Shown here in pieces: positions 23,421 through 41,964 of a stretch of 64,000 nt of DNA; position 1 is the stretch's first letter; every line of letters begins with the position of its first letter. The notes below the pieces were generated by a model that did no database searches, was not told the DNA's origin, and saw only the letters and a list, made by a program, of their open reading frames with translations. The stretch is taken from the NCBI RefSeq assembly GCF_022267555.1, contig NZ_CP073586.1:3266501-3330500 (forward strand). Direction: 5' to 3'. The translations under genes and the position numbers were made by a program. The DNA is from Proteiniphilum propionicum. GTDB lineage: Bacteria; Bacteroidota; Bacteroidia; Bacteroidales; Dysgonomonadaceae.

Positions 23421-24626
23421 ATGGCTTCAATTAAGTTCAAGTTGAATAAATCCACACAAACGGTAAAAAATGACTATCCATTAACGATACAGATCCTTCA
23501 TGCGCGAAGCAAAAGTATCATGTTCACTCCGTACCATTTGCGGAAAGAAGATTATAATGAACAAGCAGAACTTGCACTTCTCTCCTGCAAACAATCCAAG
23601 GCAGAAGAAATTAACAGTTACATAGCAAAGCAACGGGACCGATTGCGTATAATTATAAGCGATCTGGAAAAAAGAAATCAGCCGTATACTGCCAAAGATA
23701 TTCTTTCTATATACAAGTGTGGAGATAAAGGAATGTTTTTGTCTTTTATTCATCGCCTTTCCAATGAATTAACAGCCTGTAACAGGCAAAGTACAGCACA
23801 GCTTTACATGGCCGTATCTTCCCATCTAACCCAATTTACCCAAAGAAGTTTCGTTATTTTTTCGGGCATCACGGAAGGCTTCGTAAATTCTTTTCGGTTT
23901 TATTTACAGAATCAACAGTTGAAGCCCAACAGTATCCAGTTGTATCTTCGTGTTTTCCAAACGCTTTATCAAAAAGCGCTGAAAGAAGGTTTTCAAACAC
24001 AAGCGCCCGATCCTTTCGGAGATATCAAATTAAGCAAACACCGCACATTAAAAAAAGCGATATCTGCACATACGTTGCGTAAAATAGCCACAGCCGATTT
24101 GCCGGGGCATCCCTGCCTTGTAAAGAGCAGGGATACGTTTCTTCTGAGTTTCTACATGCGTGGAATGCCCTTTGTAGACATGGCATACCTTCAGGAGAAA
24201 AATATTTCACACAACTATGTATGTTACAACCGCAACAAAACGCAGCAACCGTTACAGGTATATATCGAAAAAGAGATGAAAGTGATTCTTGAAAGGTACC
24301 GCACCCCGGGGAATCCCTATTTAATGAGTTATATTGATCCGCAAAAATCCAACTCTTATTACACCCAATATAGAAATGCATTGAGGCGGTATAATCGTCA
24401 TTTGAAAAAAATAGGAGAAATTCTGCACTTGGATACGGTACTTACCTCCTATGTGGCTCGCCATTCCTGGGCAACATTTGCTCGTGACAACAACATTCCT
24501 GTTTCCATTATCAGCGAAAGCCTGGGGCATGCCAGCGAAGAGATTACCTATACGTATCTAGCCTCCATCGGACAGGAAAAAATAGATAAGTCGAATCGGA
24601 AACTAATTAAACTGCTCGGAACCTGA
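23421..24626 (+). CDS. Tyrosine recombinase, probable invertase of the fimbrial switch
   Basis: 401-residue phage-integrase-family protein with an arm-type N-terminal domain (about 1-85), a SAM-like core-binding domain (about 105-205) and a catalytic domain. Likely catalytic residues: Arg247 in FYMRGMPFVDMAYL, a Lys near 273, Arg347 in YVARHSWATFAR, His370 in SLGHASEE and nucleophile Tyr379 in ITYTYLA. As in many Bacteroidetes relatives, the usual HxxR first His is not obvious. It ends 31 bases before the left 20-bp inverted repeat, which makes it the obvious candidate for flipping the 24658-25794 segment. A palindromic GTGAATC/GATTCAC pair lies about 90 bases upstream of the start. Confidence 0.9.
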   Translation: MASIKFKLNKSTQTVKNDYPLTIQILHARSKSIMFTPYHLRKEDYNEQAELALLSCKQSKAEEINSYIAKQRDRLRIIISDLEKRNQPYTAKDILSIYKCGDKGMFLSFIHRLSNELTACNRQSTAQLYMAVSSHLTQFTQRSFVIFSGITEGFVNSFRFYLQNQQLKPNSIQLYLRVFQTLYQKALKEGFQTQAPDPFGDIKLSKHRTLKKAISAHTLRKIATADLPGHPCLVKSRDTFLLSFYMRGMPFVDMAYLQEKNISHNYVCYNRNKTQQPLQVYIEKEMKVILERYRTPGNPYLMSYIDPQKSNSYYTQYRNALRRYNRHLKKIGEILHLDTVLTSYVARHSWATFARDNNIPVSIISESLGHASEEITYTYLASIGQEKIDKSNRKLIKLLGT

Positions 24627-24648: not shown

Positions 24649-24656
24649 TATCTTTG
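24649..24656 (+). promoter_or_regulatory. -7 element just outside the left inverted repeat
   Basis: TATCTTTG, a full match to TAnnTTTG, points rightward and ends one base before the left repeat. In the present orientation it runs antisense to the araC-type gene; after inversion it would lie upstream of that gene in the sense direction. No clear -33 element. Confidence 0.45.
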
Positions 24657-24657
24657 T

Positions 24658-24677
24658 GCTTTAGTTGTAGGAAAGAG
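24658..24677 (+). repeat. Left 20-bp inverted repeat of the invertible segment
   Basis: GCTTTAGTTGTAGGAAAGAG, identical to the reverse complement of 25775-25794. Identity stops sharply on the inner side, while outer flanks keep weak similarity (TTTGT). Confidence 0.9.
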
Positions 24678-24708
24678 CTAATAGATAAATAAATTCATAA
24701 AAACACCG

Positions 24709-24716
24709 CAAAGGTA
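24709..24716 (-). promoter_or_regulatory. Candidate switchable fimbrial promoter, -7 element
   Basis: The minus strand reads TACCTTTG, a full match to the -7 consensus, 31 bases inside the left repeat. Now it points away from the fimbrial genes. If the segment flips, it would lie about 60 bases upstream of the first fimbrial ATG (25808). A -33 TTG at the usual distance is not evident. Confidence 0.5.
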
Positions 24717-24813
24717 AGAAAACCAGTCTAATAAATTGTTATACATTTTACCCAACTTGTTTCACTTTTTCACGCTTAACATATTTTTACTTGTTTTTAT
24801 TACACTTCATTTT

Positions 24814-25656
24814 TTAACAGATCCCTTTTCGGCAATTTTCTGCAGGACAACAATGGCCCTCAATTTTTTTATGCCTAATTTCAGAAGCAGAATGGCCAAA
24901 GTTCTCTTTACAAAACCTGGCAAAATGGGCAGGGGATGAAAAATGAAAGGTAAAAGCAATGGATTTCAAAGGAACTGTAGGATCTTCTAAATTCTGTAGT
25001 ATTCTTTTTTTTCTTTCATTTATCATCCACTTGTAGGGGCTCGAGCCAAACTGTTTCATAAATTCGCGATTAAACGTATTATACGTATACCCACATAACT
25101 TGGCCAGCTCTTGCACATTTTTTGCTTTGAGATGATGAAGCAACACCTTGTTTTTAAACTTGTAGTCACTACATATCAATGGAGAGAAAAAAAGTGAATT
25201 CTCTTCTGGAGAATAATTAGCTGAATATAAATAGAATATTAAGTTCAGCATTCGTTTTAGTATTTCAGGATTCGTCAACCCTTTGGAATCATGAATAAGG
25301 TTTATTATTTCGAGAAATTGATTCAGTTCCGGTTTTATATTCAGCAGATACGGCTTACAGCATTTTTGATGTTTTTCGTTGAGAACATTTTTCAACGAAT
25401 TAATAAAGAGCCCATACGACGGATCTGTCATCTCAAAAAAACTGATGAACATCATTTCTGAATCCCGTAGAAGTTTACAGGAAAAAGTAGTGGAAATTGG
25501 ACACAAAACCATTTGTTTTTCCATCAGGTTATATTTTTCTGTTACGTGGCTTTCGCATTTTCCACATCCTTTTCGCATAAAAACTATGCAATGTGTGGTT
25601 TCAAAATTTTCGTGTACAACTTGATTTTTTGTTAACTTTAAACAATTTAACTTCAT
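24814..25656 (-). CDS. AraC-family regulator encoded inside the invertible segment
   Basis: 280 residues from the ATG at 25656 (an upstream in-frame ATG at 25710 would add 18 residues; I prefer MKLNCLKLTKNQ). The N-terminal part (about 1-170) is a cupin-like sensor region with a Cys pair in RKGCGKCE; the C-terminus holds the two AraC helix-turn-helix units: NVQELAKLCGYTYNTFNREF and PLKSIAFTFHFSSPAHFARF, with FGSSPYKWMINERKKR between them. It is divergent from the fimbrial operon in the present orientation and would become co-directional with it after inversion. Likely target: the fimbrial operon or its own promoter, which is inference. Confidence 0.88.
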   Translation of the reverse strand: MKLNCLKLTKNQVVHENFETTHCIVFMRKGCGKCESHVTEKYNLMEKQMVLCPISTTFSCKLLRDSEMMFISFFEMTDPSYGLFINSLKNVLNEKHQKCCKPYLLNIKPELNQFLEIINLIHDSKGLTNPEILKRMLNLIFYLYSANYSPEENSLFFSPLICSDYKFKNKVLLHHLKAKNVQELAKLCGYTYNTFNREFMKQFGSSPYKWMINERKKRILQNLEDPTVPLKSIAFTFHFSSPAHFARFCKENFGHSASEIRHKKIEGHCCPAENCRKGIC

Positions 25657-25774
25657 ATATATAAGCATTTTAGTTGAACAGGTAGAGGACGGACATATCG
25701 TGTATTTCAACTATCTGTTCCCTCTGAAACGCTGTCTCTTTTATCTTATTACAAATCAGTATATTATTTTTCGT

Positions 25775-25794
25775 CTCTTTCCTACAACTAAAGC
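25775..25794 (-). repeat. Right 20-bp inverted repeat of the invertible segment
   Basis: CTCTTTCCTACAACTAAAGC, the exact reverse complement of 24658-24677. It lies in the leader of the first fimbrial gene, 13 bases before its ATG. Confidence 0.9.
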
Positions 25795-25796
25795 GA

Positions 25797-25804
25797 CAAA
25801 TTTA
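25797..25804 (-). promoter_or_regulatory. -7-like element just outside the right inverted repeat
   Basis: The minus strand reads TAAATTTG, matching TAnnTTTG, and points leftward into the segment, mirroring the element at 24649-24656. In the present orientation it could start transcription of the araC-type gene. It overlaps the start region of the fimbrial gene, has no -33 match and may be chance. Confidence 0.3.
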
Positions 25805-25807
25805 GAG

Positions 25808-26350
25808 ATGAAAAAAATGGCATGTATCCTCTTGTTTATGGGGGTTGTTGCTGCTTTAACCGCCCAGCAAACCGGGATCAAAACGAATACGGTATTCTTA
25901 GTAACGGCTTCACCCAATATGGGGATTGAATTTGGGCTGGGTGAAAAATTCTCGTTGAGTATTGAAGGTGGTTACAACCCATTTCAACTTAAACCGGAGT
26001 TGTTTTGGAAGCACTGGTTTGTTCAACCCGAGTTACGCCGATGGTACTGCCACCGCTATGCAGGATCTTTTTGGGGCATACACACGTTTTATGCAGGGTA
26101 CAACGTGGATGTACCTAAAATAACCAGGTCACGTTTTGAAGGAAGCTTGTACGGTGCCGGCGTATCCTACGGATACAGTTGGATGCTGAATAACAAATGG
26201 AACCTCGAAGCAACAATAGGAGCCGGGTATGCCCGCATGCTATACGACAAGTACGAATGCGGGGATTGCGGTGAGAAGCTCGGCTCGTACAGCCGTAATT
26301 ATTACGGCCCCTCCAAAGCGGCGGTATCCCTTATTTATTTTATTCACTAA
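25808..26350 (+). CDS. DUF3575 outer-membrane beta-barrel-like protein of the fimbrial operon
   Basis: 180 residues from the ATG at 25808, chosen because a signal peptide begins exactly there (MKKMACILLFMGVVAALTA) and because codons upstream run through the inverted repeat. The mature part is a short beta-rich protein (KTNTVFLVTASPNMGIEFGL, then FSLSIEGGYNPFQ and repeated aromatic-glycine strands), typical of DUF3575, which accompanies Bacteroidales type V fimbrial genes. It holds a CGDCG pair near the C-terminus. First gene of the operon; 11 bases before the DUF3868 gene. Probable role: outer-membrane assembly or anchoring of fimbriae. Confidence 0.82.
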   Translation: MKKMACILLFMGVVAALTAQQTGIKTNTVFLVTASPNMGIEFGLGEKFSLSIEGGYNPFQLKPELFWKHWFVQPELRRWYCHRYAGSFWGIHTFYAGYNVDVPKITRSRFEGSLYGAGVSYGYSWMLNNKWNLEATIGAGYARMLYDKYECGDCGEKLGSYSRNYYGPSKAAVSLIYFIH

Positions 26351-26361
26351 CTCGTATAAGT

Positions 26362-27912
26362 ATGAAAAATAGATCCTTGCCAGTTTCACTATTTACCTTT
26401 CTGATTTCTTGTATGCTGCCTTTTCAGACAAAAGCGCAACAAAACAAAGGACAACTTTATATTCAAGAAAAAGAAATTATTCAAAAGGATAACACGCTGC
26501 GTATTCATTTATTGATAGATGCGCGAGAGATTAAGGTGAATAGTGCCACTGCCCTGGAACTTATTCCTGAACTTTTCGATGAAGAGTTGCATACTTTAGC
26601 GTTACCGAAAATTGTTCTTAACGGCCGAAAAAGACACAGAATAGAAAAAAGAAAGCAAGTATTCGACGTGTCCCATAGCAGCGGGCAGGACGTATATACC
26701 ATTATACAACCCGAAACAGATCCTGCAATAATTGACTATGACGTAACAACGCCTTACGAAGGATGGATGAATGCCTCCTCATTGCGTGTGCGCCAAGCCC
26801 TTTGCGGTTGTCCTGGCGAAAGAGAAGTGTTGGCTGATAATCTGCTGATTGAAAATCTACTGGGAGAGGGAAAACCCGATATTGCTCAACGGGAAGCGCC
26901 CCAAGAGGAAAATGTCACGCTATACCTCCATTTTATGGAGCCTGGCAAAGAAGAAAAAAAAGCGCGATCGGAGTACGGCGAAGCCTACCTTAATTTTATT
27001 GTCAACAAATGGGACATACTTTACGATTATAAAGACAATGCCAAAAAGCTTAATCAGGTACAAGATTTTTTCAAGCGGGCACAAGAAGACAAAGACATTG
27101 TGATGGACGGCATTTCCATCATCGGTTATGCATCTCCCGAAGGCACGTATGAACACAACATGATGCTCTCGCAAAAAAGAGCCAGCTCCTTTGCCAACTG
27201 GATACAATCGCGATTCAGTTTCCCATACAGTCTGTATAGTGTGGAATGGTACGGTGAAGACTGGGAGAAACTGATAGAGTTAGTAGAGAAAAGTTACATG
27301 CCCGAAAAATATCAGGTGGTGGATATCATTCGTAACATTGGCGTGTACGAAGGAAGGGAAACCAGATTGATGAATCTCAACGGCGGACGCACCTATAATT
27401 ATATGCTGGAAAACATGTTTCCACAGTTACGCCGTGTGTATTACCGCATCGATTATACGGTACGCCCGTTTACAGTGGAAGAAGGCAAAGAGATTATGAA
27501 AACCAAACCGCAGCAAATGAGCGTATTCGAATTATACTCAGTGGCCAACACCTATCGGCGGGGATCAAAAGAATACAACCGGGCCATGCAAGAAGCAGTT
27601 GAGCAGTTTCCGCAAGATCCGGCAGCGATAAATAATGCCTCGGCAGTGGCGTTGCAGGAAGGGCGTTTGGGTGAAGCGAAAGCACTGTTGGATAGAACCC
27701 CCGAGTCGGCATCCAGACAAAACAACTTGGGAGTATATTATATGCTCACGGGTGATTGGGCACGTGCGCAGGCCGCTTTTACCAAAGCGCTTAACGGAGG
27801 TATATCGGATGCACGGCACAATCTGGATATTGTGGCACGCCAGCTATCGCTCAAGAAGCAGCGTGAACGCGAAGAAACCGAACGAAAAGCCATTCCCTAT
27901 AGAATAAGGTAA
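26362..27912 (+). CDS. DUF3868-domain protein with OmpA-like and TPR regions
   Basis: 516-residue secreted protein (signal ending PFQTKAQ). The N-terminal third is a DUF3868-type beta domain (REIKVNSATALELIPEL, SSLRVRQALCGCPGE). Residues about 240-310 resemble an OmpA-like peptidoglycan-binding domain (ISIIGYASPEGTYEHN, LSQKRASSFANWIQSRF). The last 130 residues form TPR-like helices (DPAAINNASAVALQEGRLGE, NNLGVYYMLTGDWARAQAAF) and a charged tail. Such proteins sit beside FimA/Mfa genes; a role in holding the assembly system to the cell wall is plausible inference. It lies between DUF3575 and the major fimbrillin gene. Confidence 0.82.
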   Translation: MKNRSLPVSLFTFLISCMLPFQTKAQQNKGQLYIQEKEIIQKDNTLRIHLLIDAREIKVNSATALELIPELFDEELHTLALPKIVLNGRKRHRIEKRKQVFDVSHSSGQDVYTIIQPETDPAIIDYDVTTPYEGWMNASSLRVRQALCGCPGEREVLADNLLIENLLGEGKPDIAQREAPQEENVTLYLHFMEPGKEEKKARSEYGEAYLNFIVNKWDILYDYKDNAKKLNQVQDFFKRAQEDKDIVMDGISIIGYASPEGTYEHNMMLSQKRASSFANWIQSRFSFPYSLYSVEWYGEDWEKLIELVEKSYMPEKYQVVDIIRNIGVYEGRETRLMNLNGGRTYNYMLENMFPQLRRVYYRIDYTVRPFTVEEGKEIMKTKPQQMSVFELYSVANTYRRGSKEYNRAMQEAVEQFPQDPAAINNASAVALQEGRLGEAKALLDRTPESASRQNNLGVYYMLTGDWARAQAAFTKALNGGISDARHNLDIVARQLSLKKQREREETERKAIPYRIR

Positions 27913-27994: not shown

Positions 27995-29047
27995 ATGAAA
28001 AAATTATTATTAAGTATTGTGGCATTATGCCTGCTTTTCACATCCTGCGATAAAGAAACGGAGGTGACAAAAAAAAGAACAGCGATGTCCATTTCACTGG
28101 TGGCCGAGGCAGGGACAAGAGCTTCCACGGATGTAACCCAAGAAGAAGAAAACAAGGTAACCTCCATGACGGTATTAATTTTTTCTGCTACATCAGATGT
28201 ACTTGAGAGAAAAGCCGAAATTCATGGCATTACCGGCAAGATTACCGATCTTACGGTAGGCAACAAAAAAATTGTAGTCATAGCCAACCCCTCATCGGCA
28301 TTGAAAACTCAACTTGCCTCTGTTACCAGCTATGCCGATTTAAACGATGGTACGAAAGTAAATCTTGAATTGTCTTCACAATTTCAAGGCCCGGCTGACG
28401 GGTCCATGAACCAGACAGTAGGATTAACCATGACCGGTGAAGCCACAGCTTCGTTGTCGGCCGGAGATGAAAACAAAGTAGGGGTAACCGTGAAACGCGT
28501 GGTAGCAAAAGTGAAACTGGGTACGGTAACCATTACTCCCGATGTAGGCTATGACAAAACAAAATTCCAATTGCTGGGTGTGTCCGTACAAAAGGCTCGC
28601 AGCAAATCGATGCTCGGCTTTACCAGTCATTTGCTACCCGAAGTATCTCCCTCGTTGTTTAATTATTTATGCGGCACCATAATCTCAGCTAGCCCCAACG
28701 TGGATTATCGCTTAACAGGCTCGGCAGTAGAAGGTCAAAATACGGAATACTTTTACGTGATGCCCAACAACAACGATACCGGCAATTGCACTTTGCTGGT
28801 TATTAAAGGAAAGTACGACGGAAATCAACAATACTTTGTATTCCGCATAAATGATGTATATGACAATGTTAATCCGCTTACAGGTAGATTCATTGAAGCC
28901 AACCATCAATATACGTTGAATGTAACGTTAAAACGCTTGGGCGACGGCAGCACCGACCCGAATGTACCCAGCGATCCCACTTCACTGGACGTAACGGTTA
29001 CTCCTGAAAACTGGGTGGTGGTTCCTACACAAGACGTGACGTGGTAA
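27995..29047 (+). CDS. Major fimbrillin, FimA/Mfa1-like type V pilin
   Basis: 350-residue lipoprotein precursor (MKKLLLSIVALCLLFTSC lipobox). An Arg site in EAGTRASTDV (about residue 45) fits the propeptide cleavage by an Arg-specific protease that frees a groove for strand exchange in this pilin class. The N-terminal domain shows VTSMTVLIFSATSDVLE and KIVVIANPSSALK; the C-terminus ends in the strand LDVTVTPENWVVVP, the likely donor strand. This is the first fimbrillin in the operon and the best candidate for the shaft subunit. The 82-base gap to the preceding gene is the largest in the first half of the operon. Confidence 0.85.
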   Translation: MKKLLLSIVALCLLFTSCDKETEVTKKRTAMSISLVAEAGTRASTDVTQEEENKVTSMTVLIFSATSDVLERKAEIHGITGKITDLTVGNKKIVVIANPSSALKTQLASVTSYADLNDGTKVNLELSSQFQGPADGSMNQTVGLTMTGEATASLSAGDENKVGVTVKRVVAKVKLGTVTITPDVGYDKTKFQLLGVSVQKARSKSMLGFTSHLLPEVSPSLFNYLCGTIISASPNVDYRLTGSAVEGQNTEYFYVMPNNNDTGNCTLLVIKGKYDGNQQYFVFRINDVYDNVNPLTGRFIEANHQYTLNVTLKRLGDGSTDPNVPSDPTSLDVTVTPENWVVVPTQDVTW

Positions 29048-29108
29048 TTTCCCGCTAATCATTACAGGACGGCTTCTAATGACACAACAAAGCCGGGAGC
29101 GCATTGAG

Positions 29109-30020
29109 ATGAACAAAAACAGTACATACACACTCGTTGTGGCCATCGTTACCTTGCTGAGCGGTTGCATTAATAGCGATTTGTCGCATTGTGGCAAACA
29201 GGCCCAATTGGTAATAAAGGCAGTCAACAAGTACGGAGACGACATTACCCCCAGCGGAGCAACGGGGGATGTTATGTTATTTGTTTTCGATGACGAAAAT
29301 AGATTTTTATCCCACCAATATTTGCCGGTTCAAGATATCAGGGACAGAAGAAATATTGAGGTAAAGCTGCGTAGTGGCGAAGCCTTTAGGTATGTGGCTT
29401 GGAGTAACATATCCGATACTGTAAAGATGTTTGACTTCGATCCCAATTGGTTATTGAGCCAAAACAAAGTAAAGCCCCTGGCGCTGTCTGACAATATTGT
29501 ATCTATCCCGGCAGATATATTTTATGGCAGAAAAAGAATGTCTTGTGCCGATGACGAATATTCGCCTGTGACTGAATTGGTGATAAAACGCTCTGTTGCA
29601 CAGATTCATGTAGCCGTTGTGGGAATGCCTGCCGGTGATAGTCCCGGCCAGTATTTGGTTGTACTGAGTGATAAGGAAGACAAACTTAATTTTGAAAATC
29701 AGATATTGCTACTGGGAGGCAACGGCATTTATGTAAAAAAAGCCATGTGGTTCCAAAAAGGGGTGATGATGGGAATTGAAGACGCATTCCGAGCTTTGCC
29801 TTCTTTGGGAGGAGCTAAGACTGTGTCGCTCTACAAAGGGCAACAAGTGGTGGCTGCCGTTACACACGACATAGAAAATAAACCCATTGCCCCAAGAGCC
29901 GACGAAAGAATAAACGTACTTATTAATTTGAACCAAGACAACCCTTCGGAAACAGCCGGTGTGGAGATGCGGATGGTTGTATCTGACTGGGATGAGGTGG
30001 TGGAATGGAAAGAATGGTAA
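29109..30020 (+). CDS. FimB/Mfa2-family fimbrial anchor lipoprotein
   Basis: 303 residues from the ATG at 29109, chosen because the lipoprotein signal starts there (MNKNSTYTLVVAIVTLLSGC); an in-frame ATG lies 30 bases upstream. The mature start, DLSHCGKQAQLVIKAVNKYG, and DVMLFVFDDENRFL are typical of the FimB/Mfa2 family. These proteins cap the fimbria at the outer membrane and limit its length. Unlike the neighbouring pilin it shows no obvious Arg cleavage site after the lipobox, which fits an anchor that stays lipidated. It lies between the major and accessory fimbrillins. Confidence 0.82.
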   Translation: MNKNSTYTLVVAIVTLLSGCINSDLSHCGKQAQLVIKAVNKYGDDITPSGATGDVMLFVFDDENRFLSHQYLPVQDIRDRRNIEVKLRSGEAFRYVAWSNISDTVKMFDFDPNWLLSQNKVKPLALSDNIVSIPADIFYGRKRMSCADDEYSPVTELVIKRSVAQIHVAVVGMPAGDSPGQYLVVLSDKEDKLNFENQILLLGGNGIYVKKAMWFQKGVMMGIEDAFRALPSLGGAKTVSLYKGQQVVAAVTHDIENKPIAPRADERINVLINLNQDNPSETAGVEMRMVVSDWDEVVEWKEW

Positions 30021-30044: not shown

Positions 30045-31295
30045 ATGAGAAACAATTCTTTCAACAAATATTTATTGTCACCGGTTGTTTTCATTGTTGC
30101 GATGCTCGTGTTGTTGGAGTATTCCTGCAGCAATGAACAACAAATATCTGCTCACGGCAACACCCCGGTTTCAGTAACATTTACTCTTGCCAATACACGG
30201 TCGAAAGCACAAAGTGAGGTTGAAGGAGATGAAACACAGATACAAGAAATGCTGCTGTTGCTCTTCCGCAACGAAAAACTGGTACAAATACAGCCCATAA
30301 CTACCCTGCAACCGGTAGACGGTATGGCAAACAATTACAAGTTCAACGTGCTGGTACTCTCTACTTCACGTCCGTTGCGGTTTGTTTTTTTAGCCAATAC
30401 GGGATGGCAATCTTCTCAACTGGAAGAGTTAATGGGTAAAACTTACTCAGAGGTAATTGCCGCGCTTCCTCCTTTCCAGCCGGAAATGAACGCCACAGGA
30501 GTGCAAAACCCGTTCCCCATGTGGGGTGAACTGGTACGTGAGCAAGGTGTACCGCCTGCCACAGACGAGGAGCCAACAATAATGGCAAACATCCGGCTAA
30601 TGCGTGCTGTGGCTAAAGTGGAAATCACAAAAGACCCTGCTCTGACAGAGCAGGTGTTTAGGTTAAATTCTGTACGGCTGTTTCGATGTCGGGACATGTC
30701 GGTAGTCCCTTTATTGGAAAATATGAGTGAAAACATCTCGGAGTTCCAGGTGGTAAAACCAACCTTACCCCCTAACCCAGACATGGCTTCCATACCCACG
30801 GTCATAGAAAGCAGTACCCTGCCCATCAGGATGTATGCTCCGGAAAGCAAAGGCATAGCTGTTACGGAACCCGGCTGGGCTACAGCAACAACAGTAATAG
30901 TGGTAGGAGGATTTTTCAACGCAATGCAGCAAGAAACCTATTATCGCATCGACTTTATAAAAAATGGGCCGGCGGAAGGGGGTGCCCAACAAGTCTCTTA
31001 TGGTGAAATATTACGCAACCATCATTATTTATTCAATATAACGGAAGTGAAAAGTGCAGGGTGCTATACTCCCGAAGATGCTGCCGAAAACGCTACCTGT
31101 GGCATATCGCTCAAAGTAGCCGGGTGGATAGACCGTCCTTGTGATTTTCCCGATGTGGGAGCAGGATCCGGCGGAATACTAAAAGTAGCACCCTGGATTA
31201 CAGCTTCTTCAGAGCAATATATTGGAAGCGGATGGTCGCTGGCCGTACCGTGGACAGAGGGTGGATATAATCCGGATGTGGGCGATGCGGAATAA
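30045..31295 (+). CDS. Accessory fimbrillin-like lipoprotein
   Basis: 416-residue lipoprotein (hydrophobic N-terminus ending VLLEYSC). The mature part shows the fimbrillin pattern VSVTFTLANTRSKAQSEVEG (Arg site near residue 52), IQEMLLLLFRNEKLVQ, RPLRFVFLANTGWQSS and a late IRLMRAVAKVEIT strand. It ends in a poorly conserved segment, APWITASSEQYIG. Probably a minor or adaptor subunit comparable in position to FimC or Mfa3; exact orthology cannot be set. It starts 24 bases after the anchor gene. Confidence 0.75.
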   Translation: MRNNSFNKYLLSPVVFIVAMLVLLEYSCSNEQQISAHGNTPVSVTFTLANTRSKAQSEVEGDETQIQEMLLLLFRNEKLVQIQPITTLQPVDGMANNYKFNVLVLSTSRPLRFVFLANTGWQSSQLEELMGKTYSEVIAALPPFQPEMNATGVQNPFPMWGELVREQGVPPATDEEPTIMANIRLMRAVAKVEITKDPALTEQVFRLNSVRLFRCRDMSVVPLLENMSENISEFQVVKPTLPPNPDMASIPTVIESSTLPIRMYAPESKGIAVTEPGWATATTVIVVGGFFNAMQQETYYRIDFIKNGPAEGGAQQVSYGEILRNHHYLFNITEVKSAGCYTPEDAAENATCGISLKVAGWIDRPCDFPDVGAGSGGILKVAPWITASSEQYIGSGWSLAVPWTEGGYNPDVGDAE

Positions 31296-31365: not shown

Positions 31366-33366
31366 ATGATGAAGTTTCTTTTTCAACAATGGCTATTTGC
31401 TGTCCTGTTGCTTACCGGTTTTGTGGCATGTAGTAAAGAAATGCCGGTCTCCGGTAATGAAACGGATGCAACCGTGCAGGCAGCTTTCAAGCTGCAGGTG
31501 AAGCCCGTGGAGGAATACTTCACACGCGGGGCTGCCGTTGCGGCTTGTGAGGTACCGGAAACGGATGACGCCATGACTGTAACCTTTACTCGCGACAAGC
31601 GTGAACTTCAAACTCGCGCGTCAGGCGATATTTCGGAAAATAACGAAGAACGCGTAAGCAACGTGTGGGTATTGCAGTTCGATGGCACCAACCCGGAAGC
31701 TAAACTGGTGTTAAGGCAGTTTTTCTCCGATTTGGGAAGTGATTACATCGTCCGTCCGTCACTGCTACACAACAGTACCGAGCAAACCATCTATTTTTTG
31801 GTAAACACCAATAACTCGTCACTTTTTAGTGATCTTCAACTCAACAAATACACGCTGGCCAATTTTGAGGAAACACCCTCGCGTCAGTATGCAGACCAAT
31901 TGGAGGTTACCTCCAATGGAACAACATTGCCCATGGCAGCCAAATACACGGGCATACCGGGGGAGGCCCTTAAGAACATCACAGTAACGCGCATGGTATC
32001 CAAGATAACCTTTAGCTACACTACTCTCCTCCCGGCGGGGCATAGCTTTGTAGCCAAAAGTGTGCAGTTGCAGGATATTCCCCGTACAGCACTTTATGCC
32101 GGGCAACTCACCGGAGGCGTTTTCCCTACCGAAGAGGGTGTGAATTTTACGGACTACGACATGGTGAACCTTGCCCCCGGCGCTTCATGTACCTGGTACA
32201 TGCCCGAGAGCATGAGGGGAGAGGTGCCGGCCGTAACTCAACCGGGGATGAAAGGAGCGCACAACGCGCCCAAATTTGCCACCAACATTGTTATTACGGG
32301 CGACTACACCAAGCCGGGAGCACAGGGCGAAGAAACACAAACAGTTTTGTACCGCATCTTTCTGGGCGAAAACGACACCTACAGCTTCAACACCAGGCGC
32401 AACCATCACTACACCCTGAACGTGGTAATAAGGAATATGATGGAAAGCGATAAACGCGTGTTGGTTGCCAACAATGCGCTGGCCCGTTTTGCCACCCATG
32501 ATTTGGCGGCTTTGAACACATTTGCTGAGGGCCCGGAGTGGCAGGCCCCGGTAGCTTATTGGCAGTGGGGACGCAACAAAGCCTTTCCAAACGCTGTTCC
32601 AAAGGCGAATGTCGAACGTTTCATTAGTTGTACCGACCCTTTATTGTGGGAAACTGACGCAATGATCTGGAGAAAATCAATTTCTAGCACCTCCATTACC
32701 TCAATTTTCAATAATATAAATGCCAGCTATACATGGAGTGATGTAGTGAAATCCGCCATAGGTACGGCTCCCGAAAGCTATATCGGCAACAATACCGACT
32801 ACCTGGGAAACCTTTCGGGAGACCCTTGCCCGCAGGGATGGCACGTGCCGGATGACGCAGAGTATCAAGCAATAACAATACAAACCAACGACGCAACCAT
32901 AAGGGTGGGCGGTAAAACGGGGGTATACAGTGGACAAAAAACCACCAATGCCGGGGTAACGTACGGACTTAAATTCATTCAAGACAACAACTGGGATATG
33001 CTTACCGCTTACCGGTGGGAGAAAGTAACGATTGAGGGGGTGGATTGTCTTAAAATCACCTCCCGATACTTGGGATTGGCAGGACGCAAAACAACTGTTG
33101 CCGACTTGGTGCCACACACGTATTGGAGCAAAAACAACGCGCAAGACGTTGTGCGTTATTTCCCGGTAAGCGGAATATATACTTATATTAAAAAAGAAAA
33201 TGCCTCGAGTGTTTATCGTTTTGCTTCTGATTATATAAAGTACTTATCAATGGGTGCAGATTATTCCGCACTTAATGTTTTTGCAGCTAAGGCTGGTTTC
33301 TCTTCACAAAGCAATGAGCAGTCTGTGGCATCAAGTATGATGCCTGTTCGTTGCGTCCGAAATTAA
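31366..33366 (+). CDS. Large accessory or tip fimbrillin with C-terminal FISUMP-like domain
   Basis: 666-residue lipoprotein (MMKFLFQQWLFAVLLLTGFVAC). The N-terminal about 400 residues follow the fimbrillin fold, with possible Arg cleavage sites in EEYFTRGAA and LQTRASGD and a VSKITFSYT strand. The C-terminal about 250 residues carry a C-type-lectin-like module of the Fibrobacter paralogous (FISUMP) sort: VAYWQWGRNKAFPN, DPCPQGWHVPDDAEYQ, GVTYGLKF, and a closing MPVRCVRN. Last and largest fimbrial gene, so it probably encodes the tip adhesin; ligand unknown. Confidence 0.78.
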   Translation: MMKFLFQQWLFAVLLLTGFVACSKEMPVSGNETDATVQAAFKLQVKPVEEYFTRGAAVAACEVPETDDAMTVTFTRDKRELQTRASGDISENNEERVSNVWVLQFDGTNPEAKLVLRQFFSDLGSDYIVRPSLLHNSTEQTIYFLVNTNNSSLFSDLQLNKYTLANFEETPSRQYADQLEVTSNGTTLPMAAKYTGIPGEALKNITVTRMVSKITFSYTTLLPAGHSFVAKSVQLQDIPRTALYAGQLTGGVFPTEEGVNFTDYDMVNLAPGASCTWYMPESMRGEVPAVTQPGMKGAHNAPKFATNIVITGDYTKPGAQGEETQTVLYRIFLGENDTYSFNTRRNHHYTLNVVIRNMMESDKRVLVANNALARFATHDLAALNTFAEGPEWQAPVAYWQWGRNKAFPNAVPKANVERFISCTDPLLWETDAMIWRKSISSTSITSIFNNINASYTWSDVVKSAIGTAPESYIGNNTDYLGNLSGDPCPQGWHVPDDAEYQAITIQTNDATIRVGGKTGVYSGQKTTNAGVTYGLKFIQDNNWDMLTAYRWEKVTIEGVDCLKITSRYLGLAGRKTTVADLVPHTYWSKNNAQDVVRYFPVSGIYTYIKKENASSVYRFASDYIKYLSMGADYSALNVFAAKAGFSSQSNEQSVASSMMPVRCVRN

Positions 33367-33683
33367 GAGGAGAGTTCCACCGTCGCCTATCCGCTCTTTT
33401 TGATGATAGAAGTCGCCCACGAAAGGCTCGCAAGGCGACAGAAAGCCTGTGTAAGGTATCGGCGTATTTCTCCATTGCTTCAGTGGCAATTCAGACGGAC
33501 AAGTGTTTCGTTCATCCAACAGTACATAAACTTACTTGCGAAGACGAGAAGCAACAGACATTACAACAAGAAATCAGCATGCTGTATGCTAAGTTATGGA
33601 AAAAGAAGATATAAAGTATTTGTTGGAGGTTGGGGAGTAACAATCTACGAATCACCATTAAACACCAAACATCATTAACTTGT
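33367..33683 (+). other. Gene-poor gap after the fimbrial operon
   Basis: 317 bases between the tip fimbrillin and the small AraC-type gene. An open frame (encoding DDRSRPRKARKATESL) runs through it but has no recognisable product, no good start and no homologue I know. It may be a remnant of a lost gene. No clear terminator was seen. Confidence 0.4.
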
Positions 33684-34166
33684 ATGTCAAACCAAAAAGA
33701 GATATCTTATTTATATTCGAACGTAGTTTCGTGTTCGCTTGAGTTTGCCGACGGTAGCAGGAAAACTATTGAGTTGCCAAAAACGAAGAACTATATGAAA
33801 TTGCAATATTTGGATGTGGAAGCGAAGAATCGTTTTTTTGCCGATGCAGTGAACGTTAAGATGAATACGTTGATGAACAAACCTGCCACAGTATCGATGC
33901 TTGCGAAAAAATGCGGATACAATTCTCTGAAAACATTCACACGCCACTTTAAGAAATATTTAGGCATAACACCTTATCAGTGGATGATGGGCAAAAAAAT
34001 GGACTATGCGCGCTCAAAACTATTAACCACCACCCTTTCTATAGACTCGGTATCTAAATTATCCGGCTTTGTCAATACCTCTCATTTTTATAAATGTTAT
34101 TTGAACCGATTCGGTAATTCTCCCGCTCAGGACCGAAAAATGCGTCGGCCGGGGAAGGATTTTTAG
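33684..34166 (+). CDS. Short AraC-type DNA-binding protein at the end of the fimbrial island
   Basis: 160 residues from the ATG at 33684 (MSNQKEISYLYSNVV). The C-terminal two thirds form the double AraC helix-turn-helix: TVSMLAKKCGYNSLKTFTRH, LGITPYQWMMGKKMDYAR and SIDSVSKLSGFVNTSHFYKC. The N-terminal sensor domain is reduced to about 60 residues. The last codons and the stop lie inside the IS-derived block (34157-34191), so the 3' end was probably replaced by IS sequence. Similar in design to the regulator in the invertible segment. It may regulate the fimbrial genes, by context only. Confidence 0.75.
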   Translation: MSNQKEISYLYSNVVSCSLEFADGSRKTIELPKTKNYMKLQYLDVEAKNRFFADAVNVKMNTLMNKPATVSMLAKKCGYNSLKTFTRHFKKYLGITPYQWMMGKKMDYARSKLLTTTLSIDSVSKLSGFVNTSHFYKCYLNRFGNSPAQDRKMRRPGKDF

Positions 34167-36750: not shown

Positions 36751-38472
36751 TTACTCTTCGGCGAGAGCCGGTTTATAGTAAGCCATATCTTCGATACGCG
36801 ACTTGGTAACAAAATTGTAGTTCTTCACCACCTCTATCTGTCCATAATGGATATATACCTCTGCACTTCGGCGGAACAGCTCCGGATCTTTATTGGCATC
36901 CTGCAGAAGCAGGTGTCCCATGATTATATGTCCGGCACTCTCCACAAGCCGGCGAGAGTGAAAATCGAGATAATCCTCATCTTTGGGTGCGGTAACCAAA
37001 TCGACCAACTTTTCATACATCTGTGTCATCTTCGACAGTACCCGCTTCAGCGGCTCTAGCTCGGGCGCAACCGGCATATCGGCATACTCTTTGATCCTTT
37101 GAAGATAGGTTCCTGTAGTGACATGACGGATGGCAGCCACCACCTGCAACTGCGTGGTACCTTCATAGATATTGGTAATACGTGCATCGCGATAGAGCCG
37201 CTCACACTTGTAGTCTTTCATATAACCCGATCCGCCATGTATCTGGATGGCATCGTAGGCATTCTGGTTGGCATACTCGCTACTCATACCCTTACCGAGG
37301 GGTGTGAAGGCATCGGCCAGGCGAGAGTAGTACTTCATCTCATTCCGTTCTTCAGGTGTAAGCTTGCGTTCTCTTGCAATATCTTCCAGTGTTTTGTACA
37401 TATCTACAAAACGGCAGGTCTCATAGAGCATGGTACGTGATGCATCGGTCCTGGCACGCATGTTGGCCAGCATCTCGTAAACCGGAGGAAACTCTATGAT
37501 GGCTTTTCCAAACTGACGGCGCTCGATAGCATAGTTGTATGCTTCGCGGGTGGCGGCTTCGGAAAGGCCTACCGACTGGGCAATAATTCCCAGGCGTGCA
37601 CCATTCATAAGCGACATAACATATTTAATCAATCCCATCCGGCGTGTACCTACTAACTCAGCTTTTGCATTTTTGAAAACCAGCTCGCAAGTAGGTGCTC
37701 CCTTGATCCCCATCTTGTTCTCAATGCGGCGCACGTTGACACCTCCGTTTTTCTTATCATAAACAAACATCGACAGGCCCCTGGCATCTTTAGTGCCTTC
37801 TTCAGAACGGGCAAGCACAAGGTGAATATCGGCATCGCCGTTAGTAATAAAGCGCTTCACTCCGTTCAGGTACCACTGATTTTCTTTTTCGTTGAAAGTG
37901 GCCTTCAGCATCACTGCCTGCAGGTCTGATCCAGCATCGGGCTCTGTGAGGTCCATCGACATGGTCTCGCCCTTCACGATACGGGGCAGATATTTTTCCT
38001 TCTGCGCTTCATCGGCAAATTCATAGATAGTTTCGCCACAATCCTGCAACATCCAGATATTCTGAAAGCTGGCATCGGCACGGCTCACAATATCGGCACT
38101 CATCATATAGGGTACCATGGGAAAGTTAAGACCGCCATACCTGCGGGCCAAACCCATTCCCATCAACTCTGCCTTATTAAGCGCATTGAGGTTCTCCTGC
38201 GTGGGGCCGGCATAAGTCACACGCCCGTCTTTAACGGTAGGGCCACACTGATCAACACTTTCGGAGTTGGGTTCAATGATGTCACCGCAGATCTCGCCCA
38301 CCACTTCCAGCACTTTATTGTAACTGTCCATTGCATCTTCGAAGTCCATTGGGGCATAGTCGTAAGTATCCTTGTCAGAGTAGTTTCTCTCTTTCAATTC
38401 CACAATTCGTTTCATCAGTGGATGATGAATATAATGACGAAATTGTGGTGTATCTGTGTAAAAGTTTGCCAT
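36751..38472 (-). CDS. Acyl-CoA dehydrogenase with C-terminal extension
   Basis: 573-residue flavoprotein of the acyl-CoA dehydrogenase family. Motifs: MSMDLTEPDAGSDLQAV (FAD/substrate region, about residue 165), RFITNGDADIHLVLAR, GLSMFVYDK, ARLGIIAQSVGLSEAA, RRQFGKAI and QIHGGSGYMKDYKCERLYRD followed by TNIYEGTTQLQ, where the Glu is the probable catalytic base. The last ~130 residues extend beyond the classic 380-400-residue core. Third gene of an operon after etfB and etfA, so electrons from acyl-CoA oxidation, or a reverse or bifurcating reaction, pass through that ETF. Chain-length specificity is unknown. Confidence 0.92.
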   Translation of the reverse strand: MANFYTDTPQFRHYIHHPLMKRIVELKERNYSDKDTYDYAPMDFEDAMDSYNKVLEVVGEICGDIIEPNSESVDQCGPTVKDGRVTYAGPTQENLNALNKAELMGMGLARRYGGLNFPMVPYMMSADIVSRADASFQNIWMLQDCGETIYEFADEAQKEKYLPRIVKGETMSMDLTEPDAGSDLQAVMLKATFNEKENQWYLNGVKRFITNGDADIHLVLARSEEGTKDARGLSMFVYDKKNGGVNVRRIENKMGIKGAPTCELVFKNAKAELVGTRRMGLIKYVMSLMNGARLGIIAQSVGLSEAATREAYNYAIERRQFGKAIIEFPPVYEMLANMRARTDASRTMLYETCRFVDMYKTLEDIARERKLTPEERNEMKYYSRLADAFTPLGKGMSSEYANQNAYDAIQIHGGSGYMKDYKCERLYRDARITNIYEGTTQLQVVAAIRHVTTGTYLQRIKEYADMPVAPELEPLKRVLSKMTQMYEKLVDLVTAPKDEDYLDFHSRRLVESAGHIIMGHLLLQDANKDPELFRRSAEVYIHYGQIEVVKNYNFVTKSRIEDMAYYKPALAEE

Positions 38473-38542
38473 TTCTTTTTCGGTATATTTTTGTTATTGT
38501 CTTTTATATCAAAGAGCTTTGCTGTCACTCTTCAATTTTCAT

Positions 38543-40911: not shown

Positions 40912-41964
40912 ATGAATCAAGCATACAAGCCATTCCTGTCTGTTCTTTTTGCAGGAATGCTTCTGAGCAGTTGTGCAGGAATAAAATATCTGTCAGTGGA
41001 AACACGTGAGCCAGCCCAGGTAGCATTACCATCGAATGTGCTGAATATAGCAGTAGTAAATAATGTAGTACAGCAACCCGACGAGATTGGGCATTACATA
41101 AAACAACTGGGCCGCTCAGCCGCACAGAGGACGAAAGCCTCGTCCGACAGTATTGCCATATACTACACCGAAGCCCTTTCACAATTTTTGAATGAGGAGG
41201 ATTATTTCCAGCGGGTTGTGTTCTATAACAAACCTTTGAGAAGCGACAAAGACTTCTTCAGGGAAGAGCTTATTGCCCCCGAAACAATGAACGAAATTAG
41301 AAGGATGACCGGCGCTGACGCTATTGTTTCGCTCGATAAACTGATAATAGAGACCAATAAAAGGGAGCATTTCAGGCAGCAAGGCTACACATACAGCGAT
41401 TTGACAGGAAAGATAAACTCAGTTATACGTGTGTACCTTCCCACCATGGAGGGGAAAATTCCTGCAGTACAATATACCGACAGCATTCGTTGGGAAGGCT
41501 TTGATATTCAGGATGGGATGGCTTATGCGGAAGTAATGATTCCGTCAACCGAAGAGGCTATGAAGTTATTGGCTGTAAAGGCAGCCGAAAAGATGACATA
41601 TGTGTTTGCACCTCACTGGGAGATGCAAGACAGATGGTATTACACACTCCCCAACTCTTTGATGCGAGAGGGAGAGACATTTGCAAAGGGAGCCAGATGG
41701 GAAGAAGCAATAGAGAAATGGCAAACTTTTTATAATTCCCTCTCAAACAAAACTGATAAAGCCAAGGCAGCAAATAATATTGCACTTGCCTATGAGATGA
41801 TGGACGATATGGATAAAGCATCTGAGTGGGCGGAAGTGTCAAACAATCTGTTTGTTCAATCCACATCTCCAAACTCGCTGGAAAGAAGAAGGTCTTTGTT
41901 GTATAAGAATGAAATAGAGAGGCGCCGCAACAACTCAAACAGAGTGAATCAGGAGGATTTCTGA
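40912..41964 (+). CDS. Lipoprotein of DUF6340 type with a TPR-like C-terminus
   Basis: 350 residues from the ATG at 40912, chosen because the lipoprotein signal starts there (MNQAYKPFLSVLFAGMLLSSC). The mature protein shows YLSVETREPAQVALPSN and LNIAVVNNVV, then alpha/beta segments, and ends in TPR-like helices (GETFAKGARWEEAIEKWQTF, AKAANNIALAYEMMDDMDKA). This matches DUF6340 proteins, which are common in Bacteroidales and of unknown function. It stands alone between the ETF operon and rho. Two kinds of repeats lie just upstream. Confidence 0.75.
   Translation: MNQAYKPFLSVLFAGMLLSSCAGIKYLSVETREPAQVALPSNVLNIAVVNNVVQQPDEIGHYIKQLGRSAAQRTKASSDSIAIYYTEALSQFLNEEDYFQRVVFYNKPLRSDKDFFREELIAPETMNEIRRMTGADAIVSLDKLIIETNKREHFRQQGYTYSDLTGKINSVIRVYLPTMEGKIPAVQYTDSIRWEGFDIQDGMAYAEVMIPSTEEAMKLLAVKAAEKMTYVFAPHWEMQDRWYYTLPNSLMREGETFAKGARWEEAIEKWQTFYNSLSNKTDKAKAANNIALAYEMMDDMDKASEWAEVSNNLFVQSTSPNSLERRRSLLYKNEIERRRNNSNRVNQEDF

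Follow-up and report, generated by a model that had tools for sequence, protein, structure and literature searches.

A 1,137-bp segment bounded by 20-bp repeats lies between a tyrosine recombinase gene and a fimbrial operon of the Mfa/FimA type in Proteiniphilum propionicum (contig NZ_CP073586.1), which raises the question of whether this segment is a phase-variation switch and, if so, what the AraC-type regulator gene that it encloses contributes to the switching. The locus was analysed within a stretch of 64,000 nucleotides (hereafter the window) from a complete genome of 3.9 Mb, in which the following features were recognised (positions are those of the window):

23421–24626, + strand: tyrosine recombinase of 401 aa, presumed segment invertase (Pfam Phage_int_SAM_5, Arm-DNA-bind_5 and Phage_integrase)
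24649–24656, + strand: candidate fixed outer –7 box TATCTTTG, perfect, outside the left repeat on the recombinase side and reading inward (motif only)
24658–24677, no strand: left inverted repeat GCTTTAGTTGTAGGAAAGAG, presumed crossover site with its own short dyad CTTT...AAAG
24709–24716, – strand: candidate inner –7 box TACCTTTG (motif and recurrent placement)
24737–24755, – strand: downstream half TTGGGTAAAATGTATAACA of a tandem direct repeat, predicted AraC half-site (21-nt period, fixed register to the –7 box)
24758–24776, – strand: upstream half AGCGTGAAAAAGTGAAACA of the same repeat, predicted AraC half-site (period, register and model rank)
24814–25668, – strand: AraC-type regulator within the segment, predicted activator of the inner promoter (Pfam HTH_18, HTH_AraC)
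25765–25772, + strand: weak –7-like element TATTTTTC, currently facing the operon (sequence)
25775–25794, no strand: right inverted repeat, complement of the left one, presumed crossover site (sequence, genome uniqueness and resampling)
25797–25804, – strand: box TAAATTTG outside the right repeat, currently reading into the AraC gene (motif, placement at chance)
25808–26350, + strand: DUF3575 outer-membrane protein, first gene of the operon (Pfam PF12099, E = 1.9e-63)
26362–27912, + strand: DUF3868 / OmpA / TPR protein (domain search)
27995–29047, + strand: major pilin of the FimA/Mfa1 type with a lipoprotein signal (Pfam P_gingi_FimA, PDB 4gpv; NCBIfam Mfa1 below cut-off)
29079–30020, + strand: anchor protein Mfa2 (Pfam Mfa2)
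30045–31295, + strand: second Mfa2/Mfa1-like pilin (domain search)
31366–33366, + strand: DUF4906 / Fib_succ_major protein, probable tip pilin (domain search)

An original prediction, made from the letters of the window, had placed a perfect 20-bp inverted repeat around this segment, with the recombinase gene ending 31 nt to its left (at 24626) and the first ATG of the operon (25808) 13 nt to its right. All of this was found as described, so that the locus reads, from left to right, as recombinase, 31 nt, repeat, segment with the AraC gene on the – strand, repeat, 13 nt, and a co-directional operon. The pair at 24658/25775 is the longest perfect inverted repeat in the window (arms up to 4 kb apart), and its 20 bp lie beyond the 13–16 bp reached in 60 Markov-resampled windows, as expected of the bounding repeats of an inverton. 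Moreover, the 17-bp repeat core had no other site in the genome even with up to two mismatches allowed. A match of this length beyond chance, with a core present at two places only, points to a dedicated local pair, and a chance repeat was rejected on these grounds. Elsewhere in the window, a 17-bp perfect inverted repeat (38460–38476 / 41714–41730, with 3.2 kb between its arms) was observed, against a resampled-window maximum of 16.

The adjoining recombinase is intact, carrying the Pfam domains listed above and the usual catalytic set (R247, K273, R347, H370 and Y379), which is shared by no fewer than 23 of 24 relatives, the window included. In 12 recombinase relatives an inverted repeat begins 16–85 nt past the stop codon, with 111–695 nt between the arms, so that standing beside a repeat-bounded segment is a property of this recombinase family. 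Among them are those at L082 and L084, whose invertible segments before fimbrial operons carry a promoter only, and at L079, with a 695-nt segment before a fimbrial operon.

On the other side of the segment, the operon is, judged from its genes, a type V pilus (Mfa/FimA) operon, encoding P_gingi_FimA, Mfa2 (twice), DUF4906, DUF3575 and DUF3868 domains. Just 3′ of it lies a second, small AraC-type regulator of 178 aa (33630–34166, + strand), which possibly adds another level of regulation. At L207 (5017–5553), a relative as long as this one, 31% identical over 143 aa, is located directly 5′ of the AraC-DUF3575 operon.

The regulator gene within the segment likely starts at the ATG at 25668, a position that the original prediction had not given, and its product carries the C-terminal double helix-turn-helix of AraC proteins (HTH_18, E = 2.9e-14; HTH_AraC, E = 1.3e-8). 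The gene currently points at the recombinase and away from the operon. Regulators of the same AraC family were found inside 15 other repeat-bounded segments and beside 17 fimbrial operons lacking a perfect repeat. Separately, one genome of the same family (G482) encodes 24 or more of these AraC regulators, far more than its relatives do.

The 15 other loci (L077, L078, L083, L119, L132, L164, L169, L172, L173, L180, L181, L183, L188, L189 and L200) stem from Proteiniphilum, Parabacteroides and relatives within the Bacteroidales, and each has its AraC gene within a perfect repeat of 15–39 bp that bounds a segment of 1.2–1.35 kb. A recombinase adjoins the segment in 14 of them (none was present in the stretch read for L200), and fimbrial genes adjoin the opposite end of the segment in most. 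Counting the window, the AraC gene points toward the recombinase in 13 of 16 loci and is flipped in three, L200 being scored as pointing away from the operon. Three comparisons place homologous segments in opposite orientations, with the breakpoints at the repeats. Specifically, L077 and L190, from two genomes of one genus, align at 76–83% with the AraC segment on opposite strands; L189 and L169, which are paralogous loci of a single genome and both retain an intact recombinase and repeats, are oppositely oriented; and so are L173 and L177/L178. The inversion of AraC-carrying segments is thus supported by evolutionary evidence, and the claim that the segment in the window is invertible and served by its neighbouring recombinase gains comparative backing from these flipped homologues. 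We infer that inversion in the window strain itself would be carried out by the adjacent recombinase at the two 20-bp repeats. A search of 36 congeneric species with the segment DNA returned no match beyond its own genome, and no strain-level flipped copy.

Some of these loci deserve mention in their own right. Genome G442 (L172, L169, L189, L170) holds three AraC invertible segments, each with its own recombinase and with both orientations represented, next to further regulator copies without repeats; it might be a multi-locus surface switchboard. The AraC segments of L132 (8186–9409, with a ribosomal protein L20 gene nearby) and L119 (6193–7392, beside Fib_succ_major and Ig-like surface proteins) have no recognised adjacent pilin gene, suggesting that some flipped regulators control other genes or genes located far away.

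Relatives in which switching appears to have ended bear on whether the window holds a fossil, i.e., a locus whose repeats and recombinase persist but whose inversion has ceased, leaving it locked OFF. Locked relatives do exist: L190 retains only 71 recombinase codons and has its AraC gene toward the operon, and no recombinase was found at L177 and L178. However, the repeats of L190 have decayed with the loss of its recombinase, while in the window the recombinase has an unbroken frame and its catalytic residues, and the repeats match perfectly over 20 bp, making a fossil switch very improbable.

The present orientation can be read from the loci without an enclosing perfect repeat (L127, L131, L133, L135, L142, L174–L178, L185, L186, L190, L198, L202, L206 and L207), in all 17 of which the AraC gene beside the fimbrial genes is co-directional with the operon. 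Since flipping the segment in the window would recreate this co-directional layout, the current orientation is probably the OFF state, as had been proposed originally. The promoter motifs agree with this assignment. Promoters of Bacteroidota carry a –7 box of the form TAnnTTTG, and no full box of this kind faces the operon now, which points to the same state. The TACCTTTG box on the – strand and the weaker TATTTTTC element on the + strand are both present as first described, the latter not fitting TAnnTTTG; the boxes TATCTTTG and TAAATTTG and the tandem repeat at 24737–24776 had been overlooked.

All promoter and operator assignments made here are sequence motifs. Eight placements of the –7 box around the 16 segments were compared with shuffled sequences, the P values being optimistic because the loci are related and their independence is overstated. 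Two placements stood out: an outward box inside the segment behind the AraC stop codon (12/16 loci; 0.9 expected) and an inward box outside the segment on the recombinase side (9/16 loci; 1.1 expected). The remaining six were near chance, including an inward box outside the right repeat, as for TAAATTTG (1/16; 1.2 expected). The first placement corresponds to the inner box at 24709–24716, which after inversion would lie at 25736–25743 on the + strand, facing the operon and ending 64 nt before its ATG. This motif would thus supply a promoter directed at the operon in just one of the two orientations, as in an inverton, and its recurrence lends weight to the proposal that it serves as the operon promoter after inversion. 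Scans for E. coli-type sigma-70 promoters and terminators gave no more promoters than in shuffled sequences.

The second placement, which in the window is taken by the box at 24649–24656, bears on the promoter of the regulator. A –7 box for the AraC gene is not enriched inside the segments (3/16; 1.4 expected), whereas in 11 of 16 fixed loci (3.1 expected) such a box precedes the AraC gene by no more than 350 nt, often by 248–308 nt, i.e., at the distance that would separate the outer promoter from the AraC gene after inversion in most related loci. Together, these observations suggest that the promoter of the AraC gene has been left outside the segment. One caveat to the regulator being off at present is the box at 25797–25804, which could transcribe the AraC gene in its current orientation. 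As a side observation, a TTTGTnAAACA motif occurs in the leader between the repeat and the AraC start at L078, L083, L119 and others, in up to eight locus groups (at most six in the shuffled control, there with A-rich words only).

The same placements weigh on the view that the repeats are the ends of a mobile AraC-carrying element rather than of a switch. A recombinase adjoining a repeat-bounded gene would suit such a cassette, yet the repeat occurs at a single locus in the genome, relatives show in-place inversion of the segment between matching flanks, and the enriched –7 boxes sit where an orientation switch needs them. We regard a mobile cassette as scarcely tenable, and rejected it on the single-locus repeat and the in-place inversion.

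Further evidence on the role of the regulator comes from the DNA next to the inner box. The inner promoters share an element in a fixed register, –60 to –19 from the –7 box, which consists of a tandem direct repeat with a 21-nt period. Its identity at a lag of 21 nt amounted to 0.505 across a non-redundant set of 10 inverting loci and to 0.500 across 11 fixed ones chosen without close relatives in the inverting set, values reached in 0/1000 shuffles in either case. The window taken alone has 12/22 matches at this lag (shuffle P of 0.016), and a repeat model built without it placed 24735–24776 (– strand) first within 3 kb and fourth among 127,918 window positions. At several loci, the final codons of the AraC gene run into the upstream repeat, in reading frames that differ from one locus to another, which argues that this repeat is kept as DNA. 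At araI1-I2 of E. coli, AraC occupies direct half-sites spaced 21 bp apart beside the –35 region. The predicted sites described here show the corresponding arrangement (in tandem, about two helical turns apart, by the –35/–33 region), and the 21-nt direct repeat is therefore predicted to be an AraC operator with the geometry typical of the AraC family. Moreover, a –33 TTTG element was absent from the inner promoters, being rarer there than in shuffled sequences.

A simpler account would have the inner promoter drive the operon by plain inversion, with the AraC gene as incidental cargo or as a controller of something else. The inner –7 box alone could suffice for this, the promoter-only segments of L082 and L084 stand before fimbrial operons beside relatives of the window recombinase, and the regulators of L132 and L119 lack a recognised neighbouring pilin gene. 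Against it stand the co-directional position of this AraC family before fimbrial operons at every locus without a perfect repeat, the direct repeat at the inner promoters of both inverting and fixed loci, and the lack of a –33 box, on the strength of which we consider plain promoter inversion unlikely.

We therefore favour, with a probability of about 0.72, the view that the locus is a phase-variation switch and that what flips is an activator module complete in itself. The parts, their placements and the flipped homologues can be read directly from the genomes; the working of the module would be as follows. Crossover between the two 20-bp repeats, carried out by the adjacent recombinase, would invert 24658–25794. 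With the segment lying as it does now (OFF), the inner promoter at 24709–24716 would fire in the direction opposite to the operon, and the AraC gene would be silent, pointing away from the fixed promoter at 24649–24656. Upon inversion, this fixed outer promoter would read the AraC gene in sense, and the AraC protein would bind the tandem 21-nt direct repeat and activate the inner promoter with which it travels, now located at 25736–25743, about 65 nt before the fimbrial operon (ON). The original prediction is thus supported on inversion, on the operon promoter and on the OFF state, and was incomplete on the AraC promoter, which appears to lie outside the segment, and on the role of the regulator, which is probably an activator of the promoter that it travels with.

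The history of this arrangement was approached through the recombinases and regulators. In a recombinase tree (from which L164 was omitted, its sequence having been read in part), the 13 other lineages with AraC segments form one clade (support 100/99), which includes one row without repeats. The window recombinase falls outside this clade and pairs with L049 (99/92), whose 695-nt segment contains no AraC gene. The crossover sequences differ likewise, being CACTT-n-AAGTG with variants in the main clade and CTTT-n-AAAG in the window. A separate recombinase lineage with a different crossover sequence suggests that the AraC-in-segment arrangement arose at least twice. The window AraC is itself divergent, sharing at most about 30% identity with those of the other loci, and its tree sets it apart from the large group to which the other 15 belong, on a long branch that makes its place not firm. 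With a divergent regulator and a recombinase outside the main clade, conclusions transferred from the other loci to the window are indirect. Scanning the genome contigs with the window AraC gave no match, scanning them with a two-sequence alignment returned only L137 and L138 (i.e., the already known L083 and L078), closer recombinase relatives within the family showed no further AraC-containing segment of the window's lineage, and no AraC remnant was found in the 695-nt segment of L079, the closest recombinase relative.

With about even odds, the switch would be a double lock that evolved at least twice, its ON state requiring both the joining of the AraC gene to its outer promoter and the placement of the target promoter before the operon, and its OFF state being tight. 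The accompanying view that two recombinase lineages, one with CACTT-n-AAGTG and one with CTTT-n-AAAG, took up AraC regulators of one wider family in an identical layout is a proposition that could equally well prove right or wrong.

Several known systems resemble parts of this locus. The Salmonella hin flagellar segment encloses the recombinase itself. Like it (966 bp) and the Providencia stuartii fimbrial segment (844 bp, likewise enclosing its recombinase gene), the segment in the window is of gene size, but it encloses the predicted activator of the downstream operon instead of the recombinase (PMC5903667). Enterobacterial fimbrial switches, i.e., E. coli fimS, mrp, fot and mad, similarly turn fimbriae on and off through promoter inversion by tyrosine recombinases; in contrast to the window, they flip promoter-only segments of about 250–315 bp (PMC5903667), and their fimbriae are of the chaperone-usher type. 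Judged on segment and operon type, the window, with 1,137 bp, an AraC gene and a Mfa/FimA operon, falls outside the fimS type. Closer in make-up are the Tsr-controlled invertible promoters of Bacteroides fragilis, which govern surface proteins; a fimbria-like locus subject to phase variation is among their targets (PMC12632263, citing Weinacht 2004). Shared with that system are an adjoining Bacteroidales tyrosine recombinase, inverted repeats, an inner Bacteroides –7 box and a type V pilus-like operon, whereas the segment length of 1.1 kb, the AraC-type regulator, the predicted operator and the second promoter outside set the window apart from the Tsr promoters as far as that source describes them. 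The fixed Bacteroidales AraC-Mfa/FimA loci (L127, L131, L133, L135, L175, L176, L185 and others) share the regulator family, the operon type and the 21-nt repeat, and differ in having no perfect inverted repeat, no recombinase found beside them and an AraC gene fixed toward the operon. A survey of gut invertons reports surface genes and invertases near invertons, and the word AraC is absent from it (PMC11892184). Among the openly readable papers searched, none paired "AraC family" with inverton.

The AraC-in-segment design seems to be a variant of the invertible-promoter switches of Bacteroidales, found repeatedly in related bacteria of the gut and of the environment. Inverton surveys geared to short promoters between genes may miss repeat-bounded segments longer than 1 kb. 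The reading set out above predicts an operator formed by the 21-nt direct repeat and two orientation-dependent transcripts. In known fimbrial switches a promoter alone is flipped; in this locus an activator, its operator and its target promoter appear to be flipped together as the promoter of the activator stays in place. If true, this would provide a tight, bistable on/off state of the pilus operon, and the regulator could also act on distant genes.
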